The notes under the pieces: generated by a model | What the model saw: only the letters and a program-made list of their open reading frames with translations | Database searches by the model: none | Told to the model about the DNA's origin: nothing | In this document: piece by piece, positions 11,760-50,868 of the stretch | Position numbering within the stretch: position 1 is the stretch's first letter | How the letters are laid out: each line of letters starts with the position of its first letter | Program-made: the position numbers and the translations under genes | Assembly (NCBI GenBank): GCA_950295325.1 | Contig: OX485806.1 | Location: 12,152,001-12,216,000 of the forward strand | Reading direction: 5' to 3' | Origin: Polytrichum commune | Lineage: Eukaryota; Streptophyta; Polytrichopsida; Polytrichales; Polytrichaceae | Length of the DNA stretch: 64,000 nucleotides

Positions 11760-13599
11760 CAAATCTTGTGTCAATGAAGGGACGATCATGAGATAAAAAT
11801 TTAAATTTAAATGGCAATCAAAAGTTCAAACACAATCCAACTAAACCCTAATTTTAGGCATGGAAGAGACCTAACATCTACAGAAAAGTTGTAACAAGCC
11901 TAAATTATTGGACTCCAAGCTGAGAAAACCTCTCGACCCAAGCACAGACATTAGTGAACAGGAGCAATATCCTTGCAGAATATATAAAGTAGGATCCATC
12001 AGAGTATACATAGAGCCTGTAACTTTAGCTCCAAACATGACTGAGGGGTTTCCCAGCCTTTTAACTACAAGGAACTAGAGAGAGCTAATCAAGAATGACT
12101 TGCTTGTAAATGTGAGAGATAGAAATATACAATGCACTTCAAATCCCCTAAAAAATACAGAAAAGTGCCAATATAAACAGAATATATGTCCGCTTTAAAT
12201 TGAAATCAACTACACAGCATTTACACTACCTATGACATCAGTTCAGATGATCAAGTGTAGGCCGGCATAAATAGTTCACAAATTCAAAATCGCATGTATA
12301 CAGTAATAAGAAAAGTTTCAGATGGCAGAATGTCCATATAGCACTGCAACAACCACATGTTCCACCCAAACCCTGGTATTGCCTTACAGCAAGCTGAGGG
12401 GGTACAACCCGGAGCAACCCTAAGGTTCTGGGGCGAACCCGCTAAACAGCCAAGAATCGGCAATGAACTCTTGGCCTTATTATTCCTTGCTCTTAGCAAG
12501 ATAGGCACCATAATTCATGTGGCTTAGAAAAATCATGAACAATGAGGGTGATGCACTCCTTGTGTTCCTGCAGATGAGTGATCCCATTCACTTTCTTCAG
12601 ACCCTAAGTATGACTGTACACGCTGAAAACCTTGTGATTCTTGGCATGGCCCGAATAAACCCTAAGGAACCTGCTACACTGCAGACTTGCTTGCATGACT
12701 GCTGACCATCAATTTAGTTGATGCGCATGGCGACAACCTTGCACGTTCAGTTGATGGCCACCAAAACTCAGTATAATCAGAACCCCAAAACTCTACAACA
12801 GACTGTTTGGAAGACTAATTGGAAGATCACTGGTGTAGTCCATAGGAAGAGGAACTTCTGTAAACTACAGTGGTCACAAGGAAAACAGAACCATTGGCTT
12901 CTTCGTGCACAGCTCCGGCAACTAGTGTATAATCACATCTGCGGCATGAATCCTGGACGCTCATTGAATTCTGGACGCAAATTAGCTAGATTGACCGGAA
13001 ACAACCTTGCCCGTTCACTCGGGTAACTCAGGATGTCAAACCCTAAACAGACAAAACTACATGAAACACATCCACTCTGTGGCAGCCGACTGTGTGAGCA
13101 AATTACAACACATAAGTTCATTAGCCCAAAAGTCCGTCAAAAAACAGCATCTTCCCTCACCAAACATAGCCATGAGGAAACAGAACCAAAAGCTCCCTCC
13201 ATACTGCCATGGACATGTTGGAAGGAGATAGTGCGCATAGTGTAAAATTACATGTGTCGCATGTAGCCTTCTGCCACATTGATTGATTCTGAACGCCAAT
13301 TAGGTGTATAAGACCGGGTTTTGTTGCCCACTCACATGACTCCGGATAATCAAACCCTAAACAGACAGAACCACACGAAACACATCTACTCTGCAGCAGC
13401 CCGAGTGTTTGAGCAAATTATAACGCATGGATTTATTAGCCTAGAAGGTCGTAAGGACATGGCACCTTCCATCACAAAGGAAAGCCATGGGGAAACAGAA
13501 CCAAATGGCTCCCTCCATGCTGCCATGCGCACATTGAAATCGAAAGGAGGAGTTAAGGGGAAAGGAAAGAAAACGAAACGAAGAGAGACACTTACTTAC
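11760..13599 (-). other. leader intron of the tri-snRNP 27K gene, internally repeated
   Basis: The donor GTAAGTAAG reads on the minus strand from 13599, and the acceptor lies shortly before the ATG at 11743. The intron contains tandem repeats of about 300-340 bp: a CATGGCAG-ATGGAGGGAGC block followed by TTTGGTTCTGTTTCC occurs near 13480-13530 and 13170-13215, with a partial third copy near 12840-12960. The same unit is present in the CMC2 leader intron. ORFs in this stretch look non-functional. Confidence 0.65.
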
Positions 13600-13890
13600 T
13601 GTGAGAAGGCTCTATGAAACGCCGAAATTGAAATTGGAGAGAGATGGAACTTGACGCTGATTGATAGAAGCGATCGAAAAGCACAGCATTGGTATGAATT
13701 TGCAAAGTTTCGCTCGCCTTTCTGAGTCTCTGTTACGGAACAGAACCCTAGAAATGTCCGCCCTCTTCTCCTATTTCGAAACTCCTCCAAGGGAAGCTAG
13801 ATAGACTTGTGTGGGAAATCTAGGAGGGGTCAACATAACGTAGAATCCACGTTAAGCTAAATTTGAGCCATTTATGGATTAGATATCCAT
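13600..13890 (-). promoter_or_regulatory. promoter and 5' UTR exon of the tri-snRNP 27K gene
   Basis: The 5' UTR exon is inferred from the strong donor at 13599/13600 and from strict collinearity with the CMC2 leader at 44870-45152. Shared words include GACCCCTCCTAGATT (13817-13831, minus) and a block around GATCGCTTCTATCAA and AGCGTCAAGTTCCATC (about 13640-13678). GAACCCTAG, close to a telo-box, lies at about 13742-13750. The transcription start is not determined. Confidence 0.6.
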
Positions 13891-15720
13891 TGAGAAGAGA
13901 GTGGATGACGTAATAGGTAATGCATTTGGAGGAGTGCATTATGGGGAACACAAGCACTTATGCTTGGGAATTGTCTTACAGGGTGTCCTTATGAAGATGT
14001 ACCTTGTGTGGCAGTAGCTGAGCATAGGTGTTCGTGTTCCCCATAATGCACTCCCTAAGTGCGTTACTGAACGTAAAGGCCCAAGGATGGATTACTATGG
14101 CACCAATTGGTTAAGAAAGGTAATGTCCTTCCCATAAGTGTAATGCCATGTCCATAATCGTGATGCACTTCGAAGTATGTGGGGTGCATCATGCTAAGTA
14201 AGGCTATCTCATTTTACAAAGGGAAATTCAGCATGGGTCTTTACGAGTGGTGAAAGCAGTGTGTCATCCACCTCCCCAAGTTGGTTTTCGGTCATAATCA
14301 ATCTTCTCATGGATGTAAAATAAATGTTATGAATGAGTTGCCCTCTATGTGGAAAGAAAAGCAAGAGCGTTGTGGGAAGTACCCTCCACTTGGATGATGG
14401 ACTACATATGTAGAGTGCCAGTCAAAGGATTTGAGTTATGAGTTTTCAATCTTGTAACTTCACTAAGAACTAAGATTATTGTGTATAAAATGGTTAGACT
14501 TTATTGTTTGTCATGAAGTTCTTTTGGGATTTCAATGTTAGGATTTTTCTTGTATTTGTATGAAATTTTATGATCTTCCGTGATGCTACTATGATTTTTC
14601 AAAGTCAAAAGTGTTGGAATCATACAACAAGCAAGTTCCCCCTACCCTAATTATGGTGACTAATGAACGGAGAATGGTTTAACACATTTTGAGCATGTAG
14701 TCCAATCTCTTTTGGTGACCGTTTTTGGATCCACACCTAAAAACAAACCACTCAAAAATAGGGTGTTTGATAAAGATAAGTAACCAAACTAAGCATGTTA
14801 ACCGTACACTAAACATTGGATTCATAATGGCCCGTGCAAATTCCATCAGGAAGAGATTTATATGTCTTGCACATGAAGTTTCTTAGGGTGCCCTACATAT
14901 CCGAGCACATCCACCTTGCTTTTAAAATGTCATACGGTTCCACAAATTGTTCACAAAAGGTTTAATGACGTATATAAGTTATTCTTAATGAAATTTACAT
15001 TATATAATGGCCATTGGGTGGACCCAACTCATAGCCACCGGCTGCTCGCCTAGGTCCACCCAATGGCTATATTTTAGTACATTATTCATCATTGACCCAC
15101 ATTAATTGTTTTCCAACCAGTGGGTGGCAACTAAATAAATTGACACATGACACTTGATGTTCAATGACAAGTGAAATTGACCACTCTAATTCTAATGGCA
15201 CACCAAATCTGATGTTTAGATGAATTTAGCACCATCCATACATGAATCACAAAGTGGCAGGACTTATAAGCTAATAAGCATGGCATGTGTCTTTCATGGC
15301 AACTCCAATTACTCTTTCAAGTTCACATGTGCATGTCACATATATGCACCCATGGTAGATAGATGGACAAGTATGTAGGCCAGTAGGTAGGTTGCCGCAT
15401 TTTGTATTGCACAAAGTAAAAAGTGAAAAAGTCAATATGCAATTACATACCAATTTAAGATTACATACAAAAAATCATATAATATATAATATATAATATT
15501 TTCCACATAGAACTACGAGCCTTGCCAAATTAGGGTCCAATCCCCCACACCCACTAATTAATAAATTATGAAAATCAAGTTGCTCAACCACGGCCTTGTG
15601 TGTATGCATATAGAATGAAGGTGTATGTTTCTTCCATCATATTCCTTCTCTATTAACCCTAAACCATTCTCTATTCCAAATATGAATAATCAATTACACA
15701 AGATGCCATGATATACCCTC
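13891..15720. other. gene-free stretch
   Basis: No exon is recognised. It contains one copy of the dispersed ~120 bp repeat (about 14695-14810). A GTGCATTATGGGGAAC word near 13935-13950 faces GTTCCCCATAATGCAC near 14034-14050, a short inverted pair around a loop of about 85 bp. A CCACCCAATGGC/GCCATTGGGTGG pair lies near 15009-15070. Confidence 0.45.
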
Positions 15721-25358: not shown

Positions 25359-28300
25359 TTAACGTTGAGATTGAAGCCTGCTCTCGTCATCCGATTCATC
25401 TGCAACTTCCTCGATTGGCTCCGGGACGATGTCACTGGAGCCACGCCGGGTGTGATGCAAATGGTAAACTTCTCGTGATGATGAGTTTGGACCACTGGAG
25501 GATGCCGACCCTGCTTGTCTTGCAATTGGTAACATTCCCGGGTAACTATCATCTCCGCTACGGTAATGCCCCGAGGCAGCGTTCGTATGCTGCCTCCAGC
25601 TGCCAAACAACGCATCGTTCCACGAACTGTGCAGGGAAGTGCGAAGCGCAAATGGCTCACCAAAATTCTCCTCCCTCACCACTTTATGAGGGTTTTCAAG
25701 GGCCTTCAGAATGTGCTTCATGCTGGGTCGCTTGGAAGGCTTAGAGTTCAGGCATGCCTTGGCGATGATGGCCACGGCCCAGACCTCTTCAAATAAATCC
25801 TCATCGATGATTAAAGATGGGTCGACGATCCTCGGCAAGGCATCCTTGTCGTTGACGTTGATAAGGGGGAGTGCCCAGTCAAGCCATTGTTGATCCGTTG
25901 AACCGCTAATGCCAAGCTTCCCAGAGACAAGCTCAAGAAGAATCTTTCCAAAACAGTAAACATCATATGCACCTGACACAACCCCATGACCTGGAGGAAC
26001 ATAGAGTGTTAACTGCAGCTCAGAAACTAAATACAACCGATCTGAGACCTTGATCTGTACTTCTTAATATTAAGCTCAGGTTGACATACAAAGTCCCTTG
26101 ACATACAACATCCAAACTCTATAGTATCTAAAGACAGAAAACCATAAAACAAAACTTTAAAAAAAAAATCAGACACAAGGAAAGAAAGGGATAAGAGAGT
26201 TCTATAAGGAAAAGTGAACTCACTTGGATCTGCCTGATCGTAGAATGAGCTGCAATCACAAAATTAGGTCACACACGTGAGTGTGTAGACAGGAATTACC
26301 TTGTGTGAATATGTCACCAAAAGAGTACACACACTACAGATAAACAATGATTTAAGCCTTAAACAAATGCCCAGATTGTTGTATCAAATAATAAAAGAAT
26401 TTCTGTCCAGATTATATCTGCACATGTGACAATCACGGGTTTCAGAATGGGCCTAACCTCGAAAATCCAAACATACGCGAGAAGATACTGGAGTTCTGGT
26501 CCCCATCTTGCATCCGTGCATCGCTCAAGCTCCCAATCCTTACCTCATATTTATCATCAAGCAGAATGCTGCTGGCTTTAACATCTCTGAAGAAAGTTAA
26601 GTACAGAAAAAAGTAAGAACCGATTTATGACAACCATGCTCACAAAAAAATGTGGTCTTGTCTGCAGAAAGAAGTGTTTCTGCATCATTCTGGTAGAACT
26701 AAGTCACAGTATTCAAGAAGTTTGCATCGCATCCAAAAATTCACTACTTCAATCATTCATAACCAGAGCCAATAAAAAAATGGCATTGTGTCACCGATTG
26801 ACACTAAGTCATGGATGTTTGGCAACAGGGACACCAACATTACCTGTGGATAATGGGTGGAGTACATTCAGAGTGCAAGTATGCCAGGCCCTCAGCAGTC
26901 CCAATGGCAATCTTGAGACGGGTAATCCAGTCCAGAGATTGCAAGCCATCTTCACAGGGACCTGAGCTGCTCTTCTTATGCAACGAAGATGCAAGGTCTG
27001 AATTTGGGTAGAATCTGTACACCAAAAACTTTTCTTCTTCCCGATCTAGGCAATGTCCAAGGAGCGAAACCAACTTTGTATGTGAAGCTTTGTCGAAAAC
27101 TTCCAGCTCTGACAGATACAGATCTCTCTTTACCTTATTAAGATCTATTTTCTTGACAACAATGGAGGTCCCACCACTGATCTCACCCCTGTAAAGATCA
27201 CCGGTGTGGCCAGTGGTAATCAAATTAGAAACTGAGAACTTGTTCGTTGCACTTTGAAGCTGTGAGTAAGTGAAGGTCTGACCCCATCCCCCAACAGCTG
27301 ACACTCTGCCGCTTACCATTGCCTCCTTGTTGCGCAGCATCTGGCATGGGTGGAGGCAGAACACCATCACACCCACAAACAATATCAAGCCAATGCCGCC
27401 GAAAACTCCTGCAAGGATGGGACCTAGGTGTTTTTGGTTCTTGTCCTGCTGAATGGCTGAGGGGAGTCCGTAGGGAGTTGTTGCAGAGACAGGCGGAGGT
27501 CCAAAATAGGTACTTGGAGAGGAGGCATTGAAGCTAAAATCAACCCCCAGTCTGAGGTAAAAGATCTTGCAAGCTCTCAAAGTGTGTTGTCTCTCCACTT
27601 GCGCCAAGCAGTTTTTCTTCGTGTTTGAGGAGGGAAAAAAACCCATCGGAAGGCTGCCATTGAAATAGTTGTTTTCCATGTCGAGGATCTGAATTGTCTG
27701 TTGGTTAGTAACCTGCTGGGGTATAGGACCGTAAAAACTGTTTAATGAGATGTCAATAACCTGCAAATCAGGAAGAGCGAGCAAGCCGCTGGGATACAAA
27801 CTTCTGAGATTGTTGCCAGAAACATGGAACACCTGTAGGCTTTGCAATGAGCTCACAAAAGCCGGGATCTCTCCTTCAAGGTGGTTGTTGTCCAAATTCA
27901 GTACTCTCAAAGCTTTGCACCCTGTCATAATCTCCCCAGGTATCAACCCTGTAAGATTATTATTTGAAAGATTCAGCTGTGTAAGATTTGCCAGCCTCCC
28001 AAGCTCCAGTGGGATTGAGCCTTGCAAAAAGTTGCTAGAAAGGTCTAATTGGTTGAGAGATGCAAAACTCCCAAGGTCCGGTGACACGGTTGAGTTCAAC
28101 ATGTTGTTTGCCAAATTCAGTATCTGAAGATTCTGATGGGAACTTACAGACAACTGCATTGCCCCGGTCATGTTATTTTGAGATAAATCCAAGATGGTCA
28201 ACTGAGGTGCACTTAGGTCAGGAATTGACCCCACAAAGCTATTCCCAGAGAGATTCAGGTAAGTCAAGTTGCTGAAGGTACCAAAGATTGGCTGTATACT

Positions 28301-28777
28301 TCCACCAAGCTGGTTGTTTGCAAGGGATAAGTATTGCAGACTTGATAGATTTGTAAAAGTAGATGGAATTGAGCCATTGAGGGAGCATCCTGAAAGATCT
28401 AAAGTCTCCAGAGTGGATAAACTCCCGAACCAGTCAGGCACAGAACCTGAAATTGGTAATTGAGAGGCATTCAAGGAGACCAAGAATGGCAATTGCATCA
28501 AAGCAGTCAAATTCGATAAGTAGGGCTTCACTGACGACCTAGGTAAGCCTGTCAAGATTAATGATTCAATGTGGCGGTTGTCTTTGGTACATGCCACTCC
28601 ACGCCAGAACGCACACGGATCCATAAGTGGCTGCCAGGCACTACTGGAGATAGACAGCTGCATTGTCAGTTGCTTCATTGCCGTTGTTTCGTTCGCATCC
28701 AATATTGCCATTGCTGGCAACAGAAGTAGCCAGCATTGAAGGGCCAGGGCCAATGCCCAAATCATCCAAACCCTCAT
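25359..28777 (-). CDS. LRR receptor-like (pseudo)kinase, At2g16250 type
   Basis: This is a single-pass plasma-membrane receptor-like protein. Exons (minus): 28777-26844, 26586-26458, 26249-26224 (a 26 nt micro-exon) and 25990-25359, all in phase, giving 906 residues. Residues 1-24 are a signal peptide. An LRR N-cap with W58 and paired Cys (C55, C63) is followed by about 11-12 leucine-rich repeats to about residue 380. The membrane span is at 451-476 and the kinase-like domain at about 512-790. The C-terminal tail is Ser/Arg-rich. The DVYCFGKILLELVSGKLGIS segment is typical of the At2g16250 subgroup. The kinase core is degenerate. The glycine loop is GHTGDLY. HRD is kept (644-646), but the loop Asn is Ser651 (HRDVKASS). 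The DFG position reads GSL (664-666). Catalysis is therefore doubtful, as expected for this subgroup. The ligand is unknown. Confidence 0.88.
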
Positions 28778-29870
28778 AGTGGAAGTACTTTTTCAATCTT
28801 CCCGCACTGTCTGTCTGCAACCCATCGGCACGAAATACTTCTGACCTGTCACTGCAAATGCCGTTTCTAGAAAATCCTACAGACTCTCCCACACCAACCT
28901 GCAATACCTATGTTTATCGACCATGAACAAAGTGCTCCTCCTGTTGCTGGGCTAACAAAGTGTTGTGGTTTCACTGTCCTGCATCCTGTTTGCTGTGGCG
29001 CATCTTGACTTCAATTCAAGCAGAACCAGTCAAAACTCATCAGAAATGCTCTGCTTCTTTCCATGACTTTGTAATAATGGCACACCATCCTCCCACCAAA
29101 ATATTTGATCCTCACATAGTGAGGCCACTGCTACAGCGTCCATTTTGTACTCCTGAAGACACCAACAGTCCGTGAGTTGAGCGCAACACATGTCTGTTCA
29201 GAGGACAGGATTTCATTGAGAGCTGGTAATCATTTCAGGTTGAATGAAAGAAATGAGGAGAAAGCACTATCACTAAACAGAGACATACCTCCACACTCAG
29301 AATGCATACATCCAACCCAAACATTATGGCAGTTATTGATCAATGGAACAGAGTAGAAGCTGGATATCCAAGGTTCTCAAAACTCCAATTCTAGGTCTAT
29401 TTCTGATACATTACTAAAATTTCATAACTGCACCACATTCACAAATTTACGTAAACCTCAAAATAACCTAGCAGATTATAAACACGCACAAGTTTTGGAT
29501 TCAACAAAACGTGCTTTAACCAGGGGGTAGTTATTTGAAGAAATTATTCCACTTAACCACTTCCGGTTTGAACTAGACAAAGCATTCACCCGGTTCCAGA
29601 GACGAAGATTCAAGAAACAACAAAAGAGTTCAAAAGCTTATACCCCAAACAAAATGGAACGCTCTCGACAGCGACTTTCTCTTACTACTGTTCCCCCAGC
29701 AAACTAGATTGCACACCTCGGCTGCCTAAGTAGACACATGTGCTTCTTTAATGGCCAGCAAGAAAAAAGCTGATTGGTCGAACACAACACAATCTACTCC
29801 CCCGTGGCCAAATTGCTCACGGAACGCAACACTTCACAATGTTGGAAATGACCATATTTGAATGTCTATG
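28778..29870. other. upstream region of the receptor kinase gene
   Basis: No conserved coding exon is recognised. It probably contains 5' UTR and promoter of the minus-strand receptor gene. Confidence 0.4.
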
Positions 29871-31172: not shown

Positions 31173-31825
31173 GGGCCCACTTCACACACGACCCAAGAGC
31201 CGTGACTATGAAATTGTGAGAGCCCAAAAGAAAGCGTCCCAAGGCCATCCCAACACACCACCAAAATCATCTAGTGTGGTCACGGACCCTCGAGTGTACT
31301 TTCAAGTCATATGCGACCGGGCCCCCAACCAAATGCTCTTTCAATGATTTTTATGCATGCGGGTCCCACACATGATTGTGAGGGCCCAAAAGAAAGTGTC
31401 CCAAGGCCATCCCAACACACCACCAAAATCATCTAGTGTGGTCACGGACCCTCGAGTGTACTTTCAAGTCATATGTGACTGGGCCCCCAACCAAATGCTC
31501 TTTCGATGATTTTTATGCATGCGGGGTCCCACACTTGATAAAATAGAATAAATCAACGGTTATGAATGTTCGGAGTACCATGGTCTCCCGGTTTTGTGTT
31601 AGGCCTATTTCCAAGAAGTGGTTTTTGAAAATAGTTCAAGTGATCACGAAACGTGATCCATTTGATGCCATTTAGACTCTACATCCATCTCGCATTCACA
31701 TACTGTGTTGGTCCCTCAAGCGTAGTGTGAAGCGAACTTGGACCGGCTCCGCCATTTCCACCAATGAGAGTGCTTGAAGTGTAATGGCCACAGGCTCTGA
31801 GTCTCTTGTGTGAAGTGGCCCTTAC
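31173..31825. mobile_element. MITE of the GGGCCACTTCACAC family with an internal tandem duplication
   Basis: The left end is GGGCCCACTTCACACACGAC and the right end, reverse-complemented, is GGGCCACTTCACACAAGAGA. They match the termini of the elements at 31935 and 38898. Inside, 31213-31374 and 31375-31538 are a direct 162 bp tandem duplication that is about 95% identical by eye. TTA follows the right end. The left target site is not clear. Confidence 0.55.
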
Positions 31826-40422: not shown

Positions 40423-42435
40423 AATTGCCTCTATCTTAATATACATGTGCTTCACATTTAAAGGAAGTCCCACCAACCACATAGAAGAATGCACATACAT
40501 TTATTGCATTAAATATCACTGTGGATCTAATGTTACATACACTTTTATACTCCGTACTATCAACCTCCTAAATGTCACTCCTTCTCTTATATCCCCAAAC
40601 CCTAGGGAGTATATGTTTACATTATAAATCTCACTCCTTGTTATCATGTTTTCCTCCCATATACTCATGGATTTTGACATTGAAGTAATTTGCCAAAGAA
40701 TTCAAACCACGTGCTCGCACGCATCATGTTGTTATTATTGCACTATTGACTATATGTTATTCTAGAACATCACATGCTACACTAGTTCTTTTTTTCATGG
40801 ATCCGTGTTAACACTATGAAACTCCTTAATATCACATGCACTTTCGTCACCACAAGCATAGTATTACGTAATTTAGAGTTTACTTCAATTTACGTAAGGC
40901 CATCTACTCAGAAGACAACATCAACACCAACCTTCCAGAGGTCATACCAAAAAAGAAAAGAAGAGAAGAAAAAAGATTTTATGTGCTTCATTCTTACTTC
41001 AAACAATCTTGATAGTAATCAAAACATAACAATCGTGATAAAAAAAAAAAAAAAAAAAAATTCTTACTTTATGGACTTTTTCCATACTAGGTTCTCATAC
41101 AAAATTAGTTTCAAAATACAATTTTTTTCCAAAGTTGAAGTGCACTCCACAAGACTAGAAAATGAGTCAGCTTGGAACAAAATAGCCACACATGAATGTG
41201 CCTTTTTGCATGAATACTATGTTAAAGCTATATGACAACAATAAAGAATCTTGGTGGCAATATGTACACTGATATGTGCAATTAGGTTGCCCCACACCAA
41301 TTTATTAACATTTCATATTATTTAGACTACTTTTGACCACAATATCAAAATACAATTGGTACTTTATTATATTTTATTATTGCTTCATAAATATTTAAAC
41401 CAAATAACATGTGTGATATGGTTTTGACCCAATAACATTTGCATGGGTAAAGAGACAACCTATTCATGAAGACAACCTATTCGTGAAGACAACCTATTCG
41501 TGAAAGGAACCTACTTGCACTATGTATGAGTGTCAAGACCAAGTTATACAATATGAAAGTTGTAGACATGGAATCTTCATATCATGCATCTGTGCAATTA
41601 GAGAATGTTGTAAGCATTAAGGAACCTTGAGAAACATTGTGAACATATCTCTTCAATACAAATGTTCTTTTCATACTTATGTGTCTTCATTGTGATTACT
41701 AAATGACAATTCCATTGAAATAAGCCATTCACTTGAAAAACCTTGATAGTGCAACATTTGGGGCCAAAATATCATATTACCAATAATATGACATTTGGAT
41801 AATACAACACTTTCTTACATGGCCTATCATGTATGAATAAAAAGGGAGAACAATAGTACATCAAGACACTTACTCCTAACCAATAAGGAACAACATTGGA
41901 AACATAAAAAAAATTAGCTTAAACAATGCTTGGATTTACAAGTCGTTTATTCGCATAAATTTGGGTTTACAAATTATTCGAGATGGAGGGGAAAGATGTC
42001 CATTATTCACAAAAGAGAAAGAGAAAGATGTAAGTTATTTGAAGCTCTCCAAGGTAGATATGCTTAATTCAGTGTCTAACCTTAAATGGACACCTACCAT
42101 GACTTCCATAAGTAATGCAACACCCTTTACAAATATAAAAAATGGACATTATCTCATAAACAAGAAAATCTTACATCATGTGATGCCAACACAATCTAAA
42201 TAAAGTATATAGATAACCTCATGTCAATTTTCATGGTGATCGGACTCACATGTTGATAGTAAATGGTGAAAACATGAATTTGGGGTGTTGCATTACTATT
42301 GACACTTTCGACATTATTATGTTCCGAGACGCATGAACCACTTTCAATGACATTGAAAACATTGCTAAGCATACTGGAAAACGTAGTTTATTTGTCGCTC
42401 ATTTTGTATCAATAATATGTAACATGGCTAGTATT
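40423..42435. other. gene-free stretch
   Basis: It is AT-rich with no recognised exon. An A homopolymer of about 22 lies at 41040-41060, without a recognisable retroelement body beside it. A short GACAACCTATTCRTGAA tandem (about 41455-41505) is present. Confidence 0.5.
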
Positions 42436-42439
42436 TGGT

Positions 42440-43330
42440 GAATCATCCTTTTGCCTTCAACAATGCTTGCACTCTATTGGGCATTGTTTTCACCAACTTC
42501 TGTACGACTTCCACCTCAACGTTGTTCCATTCCTCTCATAGCTTCTTCCAAATGTCAAACTTGCTAATGGCGAGGTCTTGATGAAGTCGGAGGCCCTCAC
42601 CCATTTCATTCCAAAAGTATTCGATAGGATTCATGTCCGGATTGTGGACTCCATGGCAATATTGTGATTGTTGACATGTTGATATATTTTGGATCATATC
42701 TTTGTTGGAACACCCACTTCTCTGTTTTTTTCCTCTCGAAATTCACAACTAACATGCTTAGGTTGTTTTGTGAGATGTTATGACAATGCTCACTATTTGT
42801 TTTTCCTTCAGTTTTGGTCAACTCCCCGATGCCCTCCCAACTCATGCAACCCCAAATCATATTACTTCCTCCTATGTGCTTCAAATTGTTACTAACCAAA
42901 CTATTGCTTAGGGATTCCCCATGCCTCTTCAAACACCACTCCTAACTATCATACCGTCAATAAATTATGACTTTCCTCCACTACTCCTCCATCCAATCCT
43001 TATGCTCTTTTGCCCATTCAAACCTTAATTGTTGTGACAATCCGAATGAGAGGTTTTCTTCTTCTTAAGTGCAAACTATAATCCTTGGGGCTTTAATGCT
43101 CTTCTTATCGTGTTAAGGGATTGTGATATTTGAAACCTTTGAGAATAATCCTCTAACATTTTATTGCAACACGTTGCTCTTTTGTTTGCACCAATCCTGC
43201 CAAGTAACGATCATCCCTCTCAATGAGAATGTGTGGGACGCCTTGACCTTCGTTTATCCTCCAATTTCCTTGTAGATCCGTAATTGTCGCAACCTTGCTA
43301 GTGCCCTTTAATTCATCTTGACCGCTTTAC
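42440..43330 (-). pseudogene. Tc1-like transposase, heavily decayed
   Basis: On the minus strand, the pieces follow Tc1-like transposase order. The N-terminal part has an SRRP-like linker and a SLNTIRRAL-type helix (about 43130-43260). It is followed by an EWAKEHKDW segment (about 43000-43030). Next come GGSNMIWGCMSWEGIG and FQQRYDPKYI (42932-42606). The C-terminal part has FDIWKKL and VVQKLVKTMPNRVQALLKAK (about 42440-42580). Stops and frame changes interrupt it, and the second catalytic Asp position reads QRYD instead of the usual QDND. The sequence is distinct from the Tc1-like element at 49.3 kb. Terminal repeats were not found. Confidence 0.75.
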
Positions 43331-44694
43331 AACTCTAGCAAATGTCATGAGCGCTAATCTGCACATACCACACATGTACATGGTTAACTCCCTATATTGC
43401 AAACCTCCAAGCCCATGGCTTGGTAACCAACCTTCCTACACATGCATTTGGGATTCTCCCCTTAGTAGGTAGCCAATGGTTAGATGTGGACTTCCATGGA
43501 TGGAAGTCCAATCTTAAGTTGATCATCGCGTTGCCGGAGCAACACTACAACAATCCGAACCATAATTGCCAAGTATGCTTCAAGGGGGGTAGGTCAGCAA
43601 CGTCGCCTCACCCTTATAAGCCTCTAGGACTTTAGGCAAGGCCCCTACCCACCGTCAAGTAACATTTTTGTTTCTCTCCTAAGAGTTGGAGCCAAGTAGA
43701 CATTTCCCCTTAGCCGTTGGGGCAGGGAGCCCCCAACAACTTCATACCTTCATAACTTCGTTGTATGATCTCTGCTTATATCAAGCGACCACTTCATCGA
43801 CATCTACGCTATGCGTAGATGCCGATAGACTCCTCACTTGCACATTCAAGCAAGTATTGAGGAAGTTATGGTTGTTCTAACTTTGGCGGTCCCGGGTGCC
43901 ACTCCTAGGTTATTGTTGTCTTAGGGCGTTGTCCCTAGGCAACATCCCACTCAAATTGCCATATCTCCTAGCTCACACCTATGATTGGGGAGTTCTTGAG
44001 CATTATAGAATCCAGACGCCATAAGCTACTCAATGCTCATGGCCTTGTCTTAGTGACTCATAGTCGTTGTGGGTGGGAGGCGTTCTCAACGCCCAAGGCC
44101 CTCACCCACATTTGGAGCAATTGGGCCCTCTCACCTATGGCACCACAAGTCCCGGGGGTCACTCCGGGGTCCCCCTTGTGCCCATGGTGTTGCGGGCACT
44201 CATGGAGAGGTGCGCGACAATAACGTTTAATGATGCAACTTACTGTTGATGGTGTTGTTGTTAGTTTCATGGCTATTATACGACAACTTTAACATTCAAT
44301 ATGGAAGGCAATAACATGTGCACAAGTTTCTAAGGAAACAATAATCATGGTGGAAGAGGAAATTAAACCAAGGACCTCGTGAATGCAAAACAAACGTGTT
44401 AACCAATGAGTTTTTCCATACTATAATGTGGAATACTCCTGTAATTCAACAAATTTGAAGAGTTCCAAAGACAATGTAATACCCCAAACTCATGTTTTTA
44501 CCATTTTACTGATGGCATGTGAGTATGATCACCATGGAATCTAATGTGAGGTTATCTACACACTTTATTTAGACCGTGTTGACACCACACGACGTAAGAT
44601 TATCCCAATTATGAGACAATGTCAGTTTTGTATGTTTGTAAAAGGTTGCATTTACTTTTGGAAGTCACTGTATGCATATGAGCTCCAAAATTTA
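43331..44694. other. gene-free stretch, unidentified
   Basis: This stretch is somewhat GC-richer than its neighbours between 43.4 and 44.25 kb and has ORFs of 60-80 codons on both strands, none recognised. It could be a non-autonomous retroelement, but no terminal structure was found. Confidence 0.35.
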
Positions 44695-44869
44695 CGAGGA
44701 AAGTGGCTATGGCCTCAATTTGGATTTGCTAACCATCTCATACTAATTCTACGTTTCATATCCTAGGAGAAGTGGGCTACTTAGTCAAGGAAAATGAACC
44801 ATTTCAAACTCATCTATTATTACAAGATTTTAAAAAGCTCATATTTCAATTTTATTGGATGGCGCTCTT

Positions 44870-45152
44870 CATAGATGGCTCTGGCTCAGATTACCATGAA
44901 TTTTGCGCTATGTCGACCCCTCCTAGATTCTGGACGCAGCCAATCTACATAGCGTCTCGCGGAGTTTTGAAATGGCATAAAAGTGCGCGGAAGACATTAT
45001 AGGGTTTGGTTGTGACACAGAGAAGGAAGGCAATCGAAGCTGTGGAAATTTCTTACGGACGCCGTGCATTTGGATCGCTTCTATCAAGGAGCGTCAAGTT
45101 CCATCCCTCTTCAATTCCAACTGATTCCTTTCATAGATTCTGCTCACAGCAA
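44870..45152 (+). promoter_or_regulatory. promoter and 5' UTR exon of CMC2
   Basis: This is collinear with the promoter and leader exon of the tri-snRNP 27K gene at 13600-13890 (opposite strand). GACCCCTCCTAGATT is at 44915-44929, and GGATCGCTTCTATCAA followed by GAGCGTCAAGTTCCATC is at 45072-45105. A strong donor AAGTAAGT follows CACAGC, with the exon ending at about 45152. The start of transcription is inferred only from this alignment. A 100 bp dispersed repeat (44695-44795) abuts it upstream. Confidence 0.6.
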
Positions 45153-46788
45153 GTAAGTAAATTGCCTCTCTTCCTGTGCGTTCATAGTCATGGTCGTTCA
45201 TGTGCTTGCTGGGGCTTGGTTTATGGTATTTCTGAAATACTGGGGGCGGATTTTGGGATCCGATGGATATGTTTAAATGCGTCCTGAAACTATTTCAATG
45301 TCGGTGGTCTGGTAGAATGATCCTTGAGGAAAGCTTCAAACTTAAGAGTAGTGTGGGAGCATGGCATTTTGGGGGGTTAGGGTTTAGTGGAGGAATTCCA
45401 AGAACTGAAATAAGGAGGGGTTGAGGTTGCGGGTGCCTGAGCTGTTTCCACTTCTGAATGCTAACGAGCCTCACATGTTAATCTAAGTCACAAAATCAAT
45501 CTAAATGTGTTATACAGACTTTGGCATGGACCGTGGTCTTTACTTAGATTGGCCAGCTCGTTCAATTCACTTGTCCATGGTAAGGGTCTCGAATGAAAGA
45601 TGCAGTTTCTTTAGGTCCTTCTAGGCTAGTAAGTTGAGGTGTCGTAATTTGCTCAAACGCTCTGGTGCGACAGAGTAGAGGTGTTTCATGTGATTCTGTT
45701 TGCTTAGGGGTTTGATAGTCCTGAGTTAGGTGGCCATCAAGCGAACGGGCAGGTTGTTTTCAGTCTTATGTGCTGAAATTGGCATTCAGAATCAAAGCTT
45801 TAATAGACTCCATGCCGCACATGAGATCCATCCGCTTATGTACTTTGGCATTCAAAATCAATGCAATGGTAGGCTTCCTGCTGCGTATGTGATTTATACA
45901 CTATGCACACTATCTCCTCCTTTTAATATGCGTATGGCAGCATTTGGAACCTTTGGTTATGTTTCCCTATGGCTATCCTTTGTGACGGAACATGCTGTTT
46001 GGGTAATGCCTCTCAGGCTAATGAGTGATGAGTAACTGGCTCCAACATTTTCGTGCCAGAGAGTAGACGTGCTTCATGTCGTTCTATCATATTTGTTTAG
46101 AGTTTGACAATCCTGAGTTAGGTGGCCTTTGGCTGAACTGGTATAGATTACCATCCTGTTAAGAACTGTTGCTGAGGTGCACAGTATAGAATTATGTCTT
46201 AGCACCTAGTTTTGATTTCGTCTGTTAGCTACTATGAATTTGTGGTTGTAATTTTTTATGATGAATGGTAGTTTGCTTGGTTACCATGTCAAACAAAGGA
46301 TTGAAATTTCAGAACCCTAAACCTTTGGATCGTATAGAAAGCTTTGCAGTTCGCAAAGACATATGACTTATGTGATGAGGAGGGCTAGAACACGTTTGAC
46401 ATGTTCAGGGTTGAAGATCTGTTTATCTTCATCTCCACCAAATGCAGTTGTCTTGTAAAGTTCACCAACTGATATGGAACTTTAACCATGTGCATTGAAG
46501 AGTAGACTTTCACCTAAGGGTCTCATGCTTGGAGGATGGAAGCGATTGTGACAGCAAGGATTGATATATGATAAGTAGCACAGTAGGGAGGGCAGTATCT
46601 AGAGAATGATCATTATCAGTAAAATAACTCTATCATCCCTTTTTAAGAGTCAATCTATTTGCACAAAGTGTAGTATTATAGTATATAATTTTTTTTTGGA
46701 ACATTGCATTATTTCTTCACAACTGTTATCAATATGCTTTGAAAATCTGGACGGGGCGCTAATGAGTTTACTTCTTGTGAGTGTGCAG
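45153..46788 (+). other. leader intron of CMC2
   Basis: The intron runs from the donor at 45153 to an acceptor before the ATG at 46902, probably the TGTGCAG ending at 46788. The part at 45650-46140 contains two related units (TTTGATAGTCCTGAGTTAGGTGGCC and TTTGACAATCCTGAGTTAGG). It aligns with the repeats in the leader intron of the tri-snRNP 27K gene. Confidence 0.55.
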
Positions 46789-46901
46789 CAATGTTCTGTC
46801 TCAATACAGACATCTGATTCAGGGTTTGGATTGAAGGCAAGGGAGAGGAGCCAACAAATTGATGAAGGGAGATTATACATCTGGGCTGTGATTTGCTCCA
46901 A

Positions 46902-47493
46902 ATGCATCCTCCTCTCACCCTGCACAAGCATCCAGCCTGTGCTGAGGTGCTTTACTTTTCCTTTTCTTCTGTGCAGACCCATCTCAATTCGATGTTTCCT
47001 CATGTTCACATATTTCTTCTCGCATGAGTGCTGTGCTTCGTATGGAATTAGATCTTGATGAGCCTAGTTGGATGCGAGGTGTTGCAGATAATTGTGAAGT
47101 TCAAGAGGTGTCATGAGGACCACCCTGTCCAGAAGTTCTTTGGAGCTTGCAATGACTTGAAAGTACAGCTTGATTTATGCTTCCGTGAAGAGGTTTGGTT
47201 CTGCTTCTATTGCCCCCTGCATAAGAAAAAACTTTTTATACACATTTATAGTTGGCTTGCATGAGTCATAACACAATTTACTCAATGTAAGTTGGTAGAT
47301 GTTAATTGTGCACATCTTATTTGATCATGAGTGGAGCTATTAAAGAGAAAATTCACATCTCTGAATGAGTTGGCATATGCTCTGAAATGGATTTACACAG
47401 AAACAGGTGAAGCGAAAGGCAAATTTCGAGGAAAGCAAGAAGTTTAAGGAAAAGCTTCGAGCTAGCAAGGCTGCCAAGGCTGCCACTGAATAA
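46902..47493 (+). CDS. CMC2: CMC2, twin CX9C mitochondrial protein
   Basis: This small protein of the mitochondrial intermembrane space is needed for cytochrome c oxidase biogenesis and is imported by the Mia40 disulfide relay. Exons: 46902-46946, 47088-47192 and 47401-47493, all phase 0, giving 80 residues, the usual family size. It starts MHPPLTLHKHPAC, which is the plant CMC2 N-terminus. The four cysteines C13, C23, C36 and C46 form two CX9C pairs in a helical hairpin. KFFGACNDLK is the conserved centre. The C-terminal helix is Lys-rich. The gene is too fragmented by introns to show as one ORF. It is followed, 287 bp later on the same strand, by PPCDC. The upstream leader is shared with an unrelated gene (see findings). 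Confidence 0.92.
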
Positions 47494-47780
47494 TATAACT
47501 GAGTTTGCATGACCTTCACTTGACTGGAATATACATAGGTTTTAAAAGTCTTGTGTTACAACTTTTGCATCAATATTTGGTAGGTCAAACTACATCCATT
47601 GGGCTTCTATCCAAAATTGTACTGACCAGACCTAGGTGCTGAGAAAGTGGTGTTTCTGGCGTCTCTGTGACGTTACACATACACTTGGTTATCAGTATAA
47701 CAGTAAAGATTGTCAAACTGAAAGGCGTGCAAGCAGGAAAATTTACATAGGAAGGCACCCTGCTTGGGTGTACAGACAGT

Positions 47781-48705
47781 ATGGCATCTCTGACATCAGA
47801 AGCAAATAATCTTAGTTGGGAGAAACTACCTGATAGTGGAGCTTCTGGAGCTTCTGGAGCTTCTGGATCTTCTGACAGATCTCTGTCATTAGGGTGGGAC
47901 AAGAGGTCACCAACACTAGGGTGGGAGAAACGGGGAGTTCGGAAGCCCCGGATTATTTTGGCAGCAAGTGGCAGTGTAGCTGCAATAAAGTTTGGGATAC
48001 TGGCTGATAGCCTATCAGATTGGGCGGAAGTAAGAGCAGTGGCCACAAAACCTGCATTGCATTTTGTGGACAGGAGTGGCCTGCCTGCCAGTGTGAAACT
48101 ATATACAGATGAAGATGAGTGGTCAAGCTGGAGCAAAATAGGAGACAATGTTCTTCATATAGAGCTTCGGAAGTGGGCTGATGCCATGCTCATTGCACCC
48201 CTGTCTGCTAATACACTTGCAAAGGTACAGATCCTGTTGTTGCGTTTTCTGGGATATGTTCTGCTTGAGGGCTATCTTTTGCTATTGTAGAATCCTCACT
48301 AGCTCATTTTCCAAAATTTGTCATTCTGTAGTTATTATTCGATTGTTTGAATGGAAATGTTTGTGTGATGTACAGGTTGCTGGTGGGCTCTGTGACAATC
48401 TTCTTACATGCATTGTCCGGGCCTGGGACTTCTCAAAGCCTATGTTTGTGGCACCAGCAATGAACACATTTATGTGGACTAGCCCTTTCACTCAGCGTCA
48501 CTTGACTTCAATAGAAGATCTTGGCATTATAGTCATTTCACCAATATCCAAAAAGCTGGCATGTGGAGACACAGGGAATGGTGCTATGGCAGAGCCTGCA
48601 GCTATTGATTCTACCATGAGGTTATCAATTTTGACATCTGAGAGCATCATCCAGCACCAGACTGCACCCTCACATTCTTTGGCAGCACCACCCAACACCA
48701 TATGA
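47781..48705 (+). CDS. phosphopantothenoylcysteine decarboxylase (HAL3 type)
   Basis: This FMN flavoprotein decarboxylates 4'-phosphopantothenoylcysteine to 4'-phosphopantetheine in coenzyme A synthesis. Exons 47781-48224 and 48376-48705 (intron phase 0) give 257 residues. The plant HAL3 core is complete. ILAASGSVAAIK (59-70) binds FMN. LHIELRKWAD carries catalytic H126. APLSANTLAK spans 139-148. PAMN is at 175-178, and LACGD with C211 is at 209-213, on the substrate-clamping flap. The N-terminal 50 residues hold a short Gly-Ala-Ser repeat and two similar SLGWDKRSP/TLGWEKRGV segments, longer than in Arabidopsis HAL3. The tail after residue 228 is Ser-rich. All known catalytic residues are present, so it should be active. 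Confidence 0.93.
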
Positions 48706-49317: not shown

Positions 49318-50868
49318 CAGTTACGAACAAAACTGAGTATGTTGTACACAAACTCAACTTCGGCTCCCATTGATGTCTGATTCAAATAAAAAAACAAAGC
49401 GATCAAGTCATGAAAGCAAGAGTCCCAAGTAGTTAATTGCATAAATGTGAAACCAAAAAGTGACAAGGATTTAGGGTTTCTAAAGTAAGAAATGTTGAGG
49501 TGGTTAGGGTTACAATACTCGCTTTTGTTTGCCGCCACTCTTCCAACATCGACATCTTTGTGTGCATTGTGTAGCCTTGGTTTTATAATACGTGAGGTGC
49601 AATTTGTATAATTGTTTGTAGCCGTATGCCTCCGTTGTCTCAAGAATAAAAGCACCAAGCTTTGGTGCAACTTAGAAGCAATGTTTCTATTTGCAAAGTT
49701 GTTGCTTTAGTGGGCATGAGCCAATCTTCTGTAGCGCATCTGAGAAGGATGTAACGGGCGAGATTGAGAGGCAAAGAGGAGGGCGTCCAAAGCTTCTTAC
49801 AAACCGAGAGAAAAGGCGTTGTGTCACTCTTGTTACCGAAGATCGACTTGGAATTGCATCTGCGACAACAAAACAACTTTGATCTTAACATGTGAATTGT
49901 TGTTTGACATCATTGTGAGGCGTGCTTTTAGGGAGGTTGGATTTGATACACAAGTGCAACAAAAGAAGCCAATTTTGAGTCATAAACATGTTCTTGCACA
50001 CTTGAGGTTTGCTCAAAGGTATGAGAATTGGCCCTTTGATGTTTGGAAACATGTGATTTTCAGTGACGAGACAAAGATAAATAGGTTTAACTCAAATGGT
50101 AGGTCATGATGTTGGATTGGAGATGGAGAACATGTTGGACCTGAACATGTCCATCAGATTGTGAAGCATAGTGGTGGGTCGGTGACGATTTGGAGATGCA
50201 GGACAACTTTTGGGTTGGGAGCATAATACAAAATTGAAGGTAGGGTGTATAGGAATTTGTACAAATTTATTTTAGAAATTTTTTTGTGGTCAACTATGCA
50301 GAAGTACAATATGGATCCGGGTAGGTTGGTCTTTCAACATGATAATGATCCCAAGCACACAACCAAGATTGTGCAAGGATGGTTGGTATCACAACCATTT
50401 CAACTCCTTCAATGGCATGTACAATGTCCGGATTTGAATCTCGTTGAACAATTATGGGCACTTCTCGAGCGGCACTTGAACGAATTTACGACACCTCCAA
50501 GAGGTATACAAGAATTGTGGGAGCGTGTGTGTTCAATGTATCCCAATTTCGGTGAACAAGATTGCATGGTGCTTTATGAGAGCATGCCATGAAGATTTGA
50601 CATTGTGTTGAAGAGCATGAGTTACTAGACCAATTACTAAAGATTTTGTAGGCAACTTGAACAAAACTGAGTATTTGTTTATAATTTCCCATTTGGCTTT
50701 GCAACATATTTTCTTACTATCAATGTAATGTGAACTTTTGCATACATGTGCATAAGTTTGTGCAATATCATATCCAATGTTCAAATTTGTAAAAGAGTAT
50801 GTGGTTTGTTCGTGCTTGTTTGTTGAAGATGAGTTTGTTTAAAGTATACTCAATTTTGTTCAAACCTG
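49318..50868 (+). mobile_element. Tc1-like transposon, structurally complete, 1551 bp
   Basis: Both ends are visible. The left end is CAGTTACGAACAAAACTGAG and the right end, reverse-complemented, is CAGGTTTGAACAAAATTGAG. The inverted repeats extend about 40 bp to ACAAACTCA. TA flanks both ends (49316-49317, 50869-50870), the Tc1/mariner target site. A third copy of the core GAACAAAACTGAGTAT lies inside at 50659-50674, in the orientation of the left end. The size is normal for Tc1-like elements. It carries one broken transposase gene. Confidence 0.85.
49640..50628 (+). pseudogene. DD34E Tc1-like transposase, broken
   Basis: The N-terminal helix-turn-helix part (ALVGMSQSSVAHLRR, about 49695-49745) shifts frame into a GRPKLLTNREKRR linker. 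A stop ends that frame at about 49880, and a later frame continues with RRAFREVGFDTQ (from about 49919). Catalytic residues are visible: FSDETKINRF (first Asp), FQHDNDPKHT (second Asp), then PDLNLVEQLW with the Glu after 34 intervening residues, giving DD34E. Further breaks are a TGA at 50107-50109 (GRS*CW) and a TAA at 50226-50228. The protein would be about 330 residues if whole. Not functional as read. Confidence 0.85.

Follow-up and report, generated by a model that had tools for sequence, protein, structure and literature searches.

The window, a 64,000-nucleotide stretch of the Polytrichum commune genome (C4:12152001-12216000), holds two divergently oriented genes about 31 kb apart (Table 1). 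In our judgement, its gene structure and promoter motifs resemble those of land plants. One encodes a protein of 78 residues in which a Cmc1 domain covers residues 1-67 (54.4 bits against a cut-off of 22). We take this Cmc1-family gene (twin CX9C protein) to be CMC2, from the N-terminal start MHPPLTLHKHP. The protein had no convincing match in the PDB, where a complex I subunit came closest (E 0.03). The other gene, SNRNP27 (27K), encodes an arginine-rich protein with a conserved C-terminal SNRNP27 domain (76.4 bits), and its product matches the 27 kDa tri-snRNP protein (PDB 6qw6_X, E 3.9e-9). CMC2 and SNRNP27 are long-standing nuclear genes. Genome searches with each gene returned its own exons only (three matches from three candidates for CMC2; two from two for 27K, whose short last exon went unseen), so that one copy of each was found.

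The interval between the two holds a gene that resembles leucine-rich-repeat receptor kinases (26843-28792, minus strand). A flavoprotein gene (47751-48702; two ORFs match Pfam Flavoprotein, at 62.4 and 24.5 bits), presumably HAL3/PPCDC-like, follows CMC2 in the same orientation, its start codon lying about 290 bp 3' of the stop codon of CMC2. The window also contains a Tc1/mariner-like transposase remnant at 49768-50589 (HTH_Tnp_Tc3_2 and DDE_3 matches, both under the curated cut-off). Self-comparison of the window yielded 33 repeat pairs, the most identical being a tandem 165-bp pair at 31213-31539 (96%).

Table 1. Coordinates in the window of the two genes, their leaders and the adjoining repeats.
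Feature	Position	Strand	Evidence or remark
CMC2 upstream promoter segment	44820-44873	+	Common to 27K only across the repeat insertion; single CATA (empty site)
CMC2 proximal promoter (shared, putative)	44874-44997	+	73% to 27K, 130 columns; z 26.6
CMC2 untranslated exon 1 (shared)	44998-45152, donor GTAAGT at 45153	+	77%, 153 columns
CMC2-only stretch in intron 1	45175-45592	+	Single copy in genome
CMC2 intron unit V1 (shared)	45593-45762, model match back to 45574	+	78% to U1, 139 columns; 128 bits (training sequence)
CMC2 intron unit V2 (shared), module end	45930-46142	+	156.8 bits (training sequence)
CMC2 coding exons	46902-46946, 47088-47192, 47407-47493	+	Pfam Cmc1, 54.4 bits
27K upstream promoter segment	14407-14457	-	Severed from the rest by element insertion
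27K proximal promoter (shared, putative)	13752-13872	-	Alignment, shuffles
27K untranslated exon 1 (shared)	13596-13751, donor GTAAGT at 13595	-	Alignment, shuffles
27K intron unit U1	13300-13530	-	Model match (training sequence)
27K intron unit U2	12987-13211	-	Model match (training sequence)
27K intron unit U3 (decayed)	12732-12903	-	11.2 bits, E 0.009 over window; non-training sequence
SNRNP27 (27K) coding exons	11743-11162, 10671-10590, 10292-10252	-	Pfam SNRNP27, 76.4 bits
Element A (CATA ... CATA) in 27K promoter	13873-14410	-	Two parts, 14410-14263 and 13910-13873
Element B, nested in A	~13911-14262	-	Copies elsewhere with the A parts close together
Dispersed repeat C	44671-44816, one match to 44836	+	Ends 3-4 bp before the CMC2 module

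We aligned the region 5' of the 27K coding sequence (14600-12001, reverse complement) with that of CMC2 (44301-47200). The CMC2 leader (44820-46142, plus strand) is an inverted copy of the 27K leader (14457-12732, minus strand) at about 72-78% identity. The common parts are the promoter, an untranslated exon, its donor (GTAAGT) and, within intron 1, a series of repeat units, with their order kept and their orientation inverted. Promoter, exon and donor aligned as one block of 296 columns (72%, E 8e-40), and the intron contributed two more (141 columns at 77% and 287 columns at 71%). Scored against 200 dinucleotide shuffles each, the similarity reached z 26.6 for the promoter, 49.9 for the exon and 84 for the intron units. 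An earlier note on this DNA had proposed that the two leaders match from the promoter through the untranslated exon and its donor into the intron, and both the alignment and the shuffles bear this out. Its stretch of about 75 bp of promoter without length change is real, at about 68 ungapped columns. Its several hundred base pairs of matching intron 1 hold as homology but not as a continuous match, because 45160-45596 of CMC2 is unmatched. The first 59 bp 3' of the 27K donor did not match the CMC2 stretch that precedes the units (z 1.3), nor did the distal introns of the two genes match each other (z -0.9).

The genome searches covered the 408-Mb assembly (64 contigs, gaps present) and scored the best candidates only. 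The CMC2 version (44870-45100) returned itself and the 27K copy (E 1.2e-21; both candidates scored). The 27K version (13912-13590) returned itself, the CMC2 copy (E 2.3e-35) and five short matches (all seven candidates scored); these five were 35-50 bp long and confined to query positions 3-53, which are the end of a repeat. With the 27K intron stretch (13589-13024) we recovered the query and two CMC2 pieces, and the 27K version disclosed no further intron-unit copies elsewhere in the genome. The core of the exon is identical in 31 of 33 bases between CMC2 and 27K. A search for this 33-letter core (31 fixed, up to 3 mismatches) found it twice in the genome, both times exactly, and a reversed control gave none. 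The search for further copies thus ended at two rather than many hundreds. With only two copies found in 408 Mb, among the best candidates in a gapped assembly, the module is unlike a dispersed repeat in its behaviour. Copies that have decayed strongly may have escaped the genome search, which did not report the likeness of 27K unit U3 to CMC2.

The ends of exon 1 in both genes were deduced from the conserved donor and a shared AGGGTT block, and transcription and splicing from both leaders are predicted from sequence. In 27K, a second GTAAGT at 13599 is a possible alternative donor. A simple pyrimidine scan gave candidate acceptors at 46788 and 46809 in CMC2, and at 11878 and five other positions in 27K. 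AGGGTTT motifs occur in the presumed CMC2 exon 1, ahead of the CMC2 start codon and in the 27K distal introns, so that either gene may still hold a native promoter of older date. Read by eye, an ATG in the 27K exon starts an upstream frame of 25 codons (13612-13689, minus strand), and the CMC2 exon has no ATG.

Within intron 1, the match resumes after a gap with two units in CMC2 (V1 and V2) and three in 27K (U1 to U3), and it ends at about 46142 and 12732, inside intron 1 of each gene. The CMC2 sequence in the gap (45160-45596) has no second place in the genome. We considered and rejected a decayed extra unit in 45160-45592: its two weak model matches had a score that 182 of 500 shuffles reached. 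The score of U3 was reached by none of 500. Outside the module, the model also matched 49574-49692, more strongly than it did 45160-45592, and 43657-43738. Rfam returned nothing in the window at gathering scores and nothing up to E 5 in 44800-46300, and we discarded the idea that a snoRNA or another known RNA within the intron explains why it is shared.

Unit V2 is 77% identical to U2 (265 columns, for 45845-46120), and U1 is 74% identical to U2 (296 columns). Over 138 common columns the identities were 80% for U1-V1, 78% for U1-U2, 76% for U2-V1, 72% for U2-V2, 69% for V1-V2 and 68% for U1-V2. Three informative sites united U1 with V1, one U1 with U2 and none U1 with V2. On the other hand, a 7-bp deletion is common to U1 and U2 and absent from U3, V1 and V2, and this conflict with the sites that favour U1 and V1 points to a mixed history of the array. 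A further motif is common to U3 and V1, and U1 and U2 lack it. The array probably predated the duplication, its units later exchanging sequence in an order that is not secure. The number of units (three in 27K, two in CMC2) was rejected as a guide to the donor gene: U3 carries the V1 motif, and the two arrays may end at the same point.

Beyond 46142 the CMC2 sequence is single in the genome, as is the 27K sequence beyond 12732 except for a partial match on contig C3. There, 217 bp of 27K distal intron (12458-12674, minus strand) match region L001:7105-7443, the sole other place found, in two blocks (74% and 79%; E 1e-10 and 2e-9), and the C3 copy shows a short internal duplication by eye. Eight ORFs of that region were compared with Pfam: six had no match, one had a match below the cut-off (E 0.08) and one, further upstream, matched the DDE_1 transposase family. 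One ORF compared with the PDB had no convincing match (E 0.19). The C3 match has no link to the module.

Dispersed repeats lie at the upstream edge of both copies. In 27K, a 538-bp repeat stretch, consisting of element A with element B nested in it, splits the promoter about 120 bp above where exon 1 is presumed to start. Beside CMC2, where the earlier note had placed a dispersed repeat, repeat C adjoins the module. For the repeats 5' of 27K the best 40 of 228 candidates were scored, and for repeat C the best 40 of 3496. Ten A-bearing loci were fetched: both parts of A were present 1-28 bp apart in six, only the first part in two and only the second in two. Among nine copies of the terminal part (8 loci), four end in TCCATA exactly as in 27K, four in a variant, and one departs earlier; past this terminal point the sequence is unrelated between copies. 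CATA precedes the conserved part of A in 6 of 7 copies, and 5 of 9 copies have it at the last end of A, possibly a target preference. By eye, element B has 21-base inverted arms.

In the 27K promoter, CATA bounds element A on both sides; CMC2 has a single CATA there. When the 27K flanks of A were joined, about 50 more bases became homologous to CMC2 (38 of 50 identical; 27K 14456-14407, CATA included), which carried the match to 44820. The gain in score on bridging (44) was reached by none of 20000 random window flanks, with the two real sites excluded, and by none of 5000 dinucleotide shuffles; in a smaller test with the real sites left in the draw, the count was 4 of 5000. The 27K flank beyond A had no other match longer than 11 bases in the fetched loci. 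Because bridging A restores about 50 bp of homology, the duplication predates A and the CMC2 copy is the empty site. The upstream limit first seen, 44870/13876, is therefore false and moves to 44820/14457, and the first four 27K bases then counted as matching (13876-13873) are the end of the inserted repeat. Repeat C ends 3-4 bp from the new limit at 44820 and so hides where the duplication truly ended upstream. Inverted arms of at least 11 nt pairing the ends of the CMC2 copy were absent from 44780-46260, though old copies could have lost them; on the 27K side the search took in 12600-13960, which stops short of the upstream end.

We measured the divergence of the copies as K2P distances. The promoter gave 0.34 (117 columns, or 130 with some element A sequence), the exon 0.27 (153 columns), U1-V1 0.26 (139 columns), U2-V2 0.27 (265 columns), U1-U2 0.27 (283 columns) and V1-V2 0.23 (91 columns). 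The promoter is somewhat more diverged than the other parts. Roughly uniform distances between 0.23 and 0.34 agree with one old duplication event.

Taken together, these results make it likely that a promoter and leader were captured through a local inverted duplication, one gene apparently having taken its leader from the other. The local inverted segmental duplication put forward in the earlier note agrees with the inverted order, the two copies and the unmatched flanks and coding parts. We propose that a single copying event placed the promoter, untranslated exon 1, donor and repeat-bearing start of the intron of one gene, in inverted orientation, 31 kb away on the chromosome, where the copied segment came to lie 5' of the other gene's first coding exon. 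The copied donor would then have spliced to an acceptor ahead of the start codon of the recipient, which would thereby have gained a chimeric leader intron with a copied 5' part and a native 3' part. A copied promoter, start region, non-coding exon and 5' splice site would suffice to drive a downstream gene that has an acceptor, and such fusions can presumably work because breakpoints in an intron need no precision. Later insertions would have altered the edges: A, with B inside, in the 27K promoter, and C beside the CMC2 copy. We infer that the duplication was a single event. It may originally have been longer and later partly lost, since its 5' end beside CMC2 is masked by a repeat.

The same final anatomy would be expected if a whole gene, 27K or CMC2, had been duplicated in inverted orientation, had lost its coding part by deletion and had its remainder fused to the other gene; and with the upstream limit hidden by the repeat, the first duplication may have been larger than what is now seen. 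We nevertheless consider this course unlikely. No trace of 27K coding sequence was found near CMC2 or the reverse, the gene bodies scoring z 1.2 and 1.6 against each other, and no second copy of either gene was found. As the earlier note had stated, the coding parts are unrelated: they belong to separate Pfam families (Cmc1 and SNRNP27) and the gene bodies are unmatched. The compared flanks had no match in the orientation of the module and gave no sign of a wider duplication, the sole match below E 0.05 being one of 127 bp in the opposite orientation. The 27K upstream sequence (14800-14440) scored 32 against 41000-44840 beside CMC2, where 100 shuffles had a mean of 31.5 and a maximum of 51.

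Alternatively, an old leader could have been held alike by selection for common regulation, CMC2 and 27K forming a coordinated pair. Each gene, found once, retains promoter, exon and donor, and the near-identical exon core would fit such constraint. We regard this as quite improbable, because conservation of the shared exon as a whole does not exceed that of the intron units and the 27K promoter is split by the repeat stretch. For the same two reasons the sequences carry no sign that common regulation was kept. That CMC2 and 27K are now regulated alike would be a guess, and it is very doubtful that the leader cassette long kept a splicing-factor gene and a mitochondrial-assembly gene under one control. 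If it had, a linked regulon would have been created by duplicating control DNA alone.

Least probable of all, with hardly any chance of being right, is that a transposable element (as the earlier note had allowed for an unrecognised transposon) carried promoter, exon and donor to both genes, as described for rice OsRpl6-1: dispersed repeats do touch both sides of the module and that rice leader is a precedent of identical anatomy (PMC2631504), but only two copies were found in the 408-Mb assembly, the two ends of the CMC2 copy lack pairing inverted arms (which old copies could have lost), and the adjoining repeats cut into the module, one of them interrupting it where the other copy is the empty site. 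The data thus suggest that neighbouring repeats trimmed the module, and nothing suggests that they carried it.

The proposed capture of the leader by local inverted duplication matters for what it leaves visible. Genes that obtained their whole control leader from an unrelated neighbour are rarely found while the donor and the copy can both still be seen. Here some of the history can be reconstructed, because the copies are still 31 kb apart, the match ends in the intron and the site of a later insertion is empty in the other copy. The pair could serve as a testbed for promoter, untranslated exon and leader intron as a portable unit. Our literature search found neither the CMC2/27K pair nor a local inverted leader duplication, which says little about what is in print.

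Comparable cases are described in two articles. In the first (PMC2631504), the plant cases listed are genes moved from the mitochondrion. The homology of the OsRpl6-1 leader starts 5' of the transcript start, keeps the intron GT and reaches into the 5' part of the intron, and it was carried by a PIF/Harbinger-like element. In both that gene and ours, homology spans the upstream sequence, untranslated exon, donor GT and 5' part of the intron, while the 3' part of the intron is native. However, the OsRpl6-1 module belongs to an element with many copies, spread over all chromosomes of rice (PMC2631504), whereas the present one is local, inverted and was found in two copies; the many dispersed copies expected of a transposon-borne leader were not found in the 408 Mb. 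The partner here is also a known gene of another function.

A second rice gene, rpl27, gained its promoter by what was ascribed to chromosomal recombination, or "promoter shuffling" (Ueda et al. 2006, cited in PMC2631504). Our pair displays the feature that characterizes such shuffling, a homologous promoter and leader on genes with unrelated coding regions. As at rpl27, a promoter and 5' UTR would have been gained by DNA recombination between loci; in contrast, rpl27 is a mitochondrial ribosomal protein gene discussed among genes transferred to the nucleus (PMC2631504). In Schistosoma japonicum, a family of different genes likewise shares a core promoter and 5' region that were duplicated in the vicinity of repeats (PMC3434034). 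That family differs in having many dispersed copies and a shared part that includes coding sequence (a signal sequence) (PMC3434034), as against two copies found of a non-coding leader here. By analogy, the CMC2/27K case would work like rice rpl27 and OsRpl6-1, as a known kind of event in an unusual setting.
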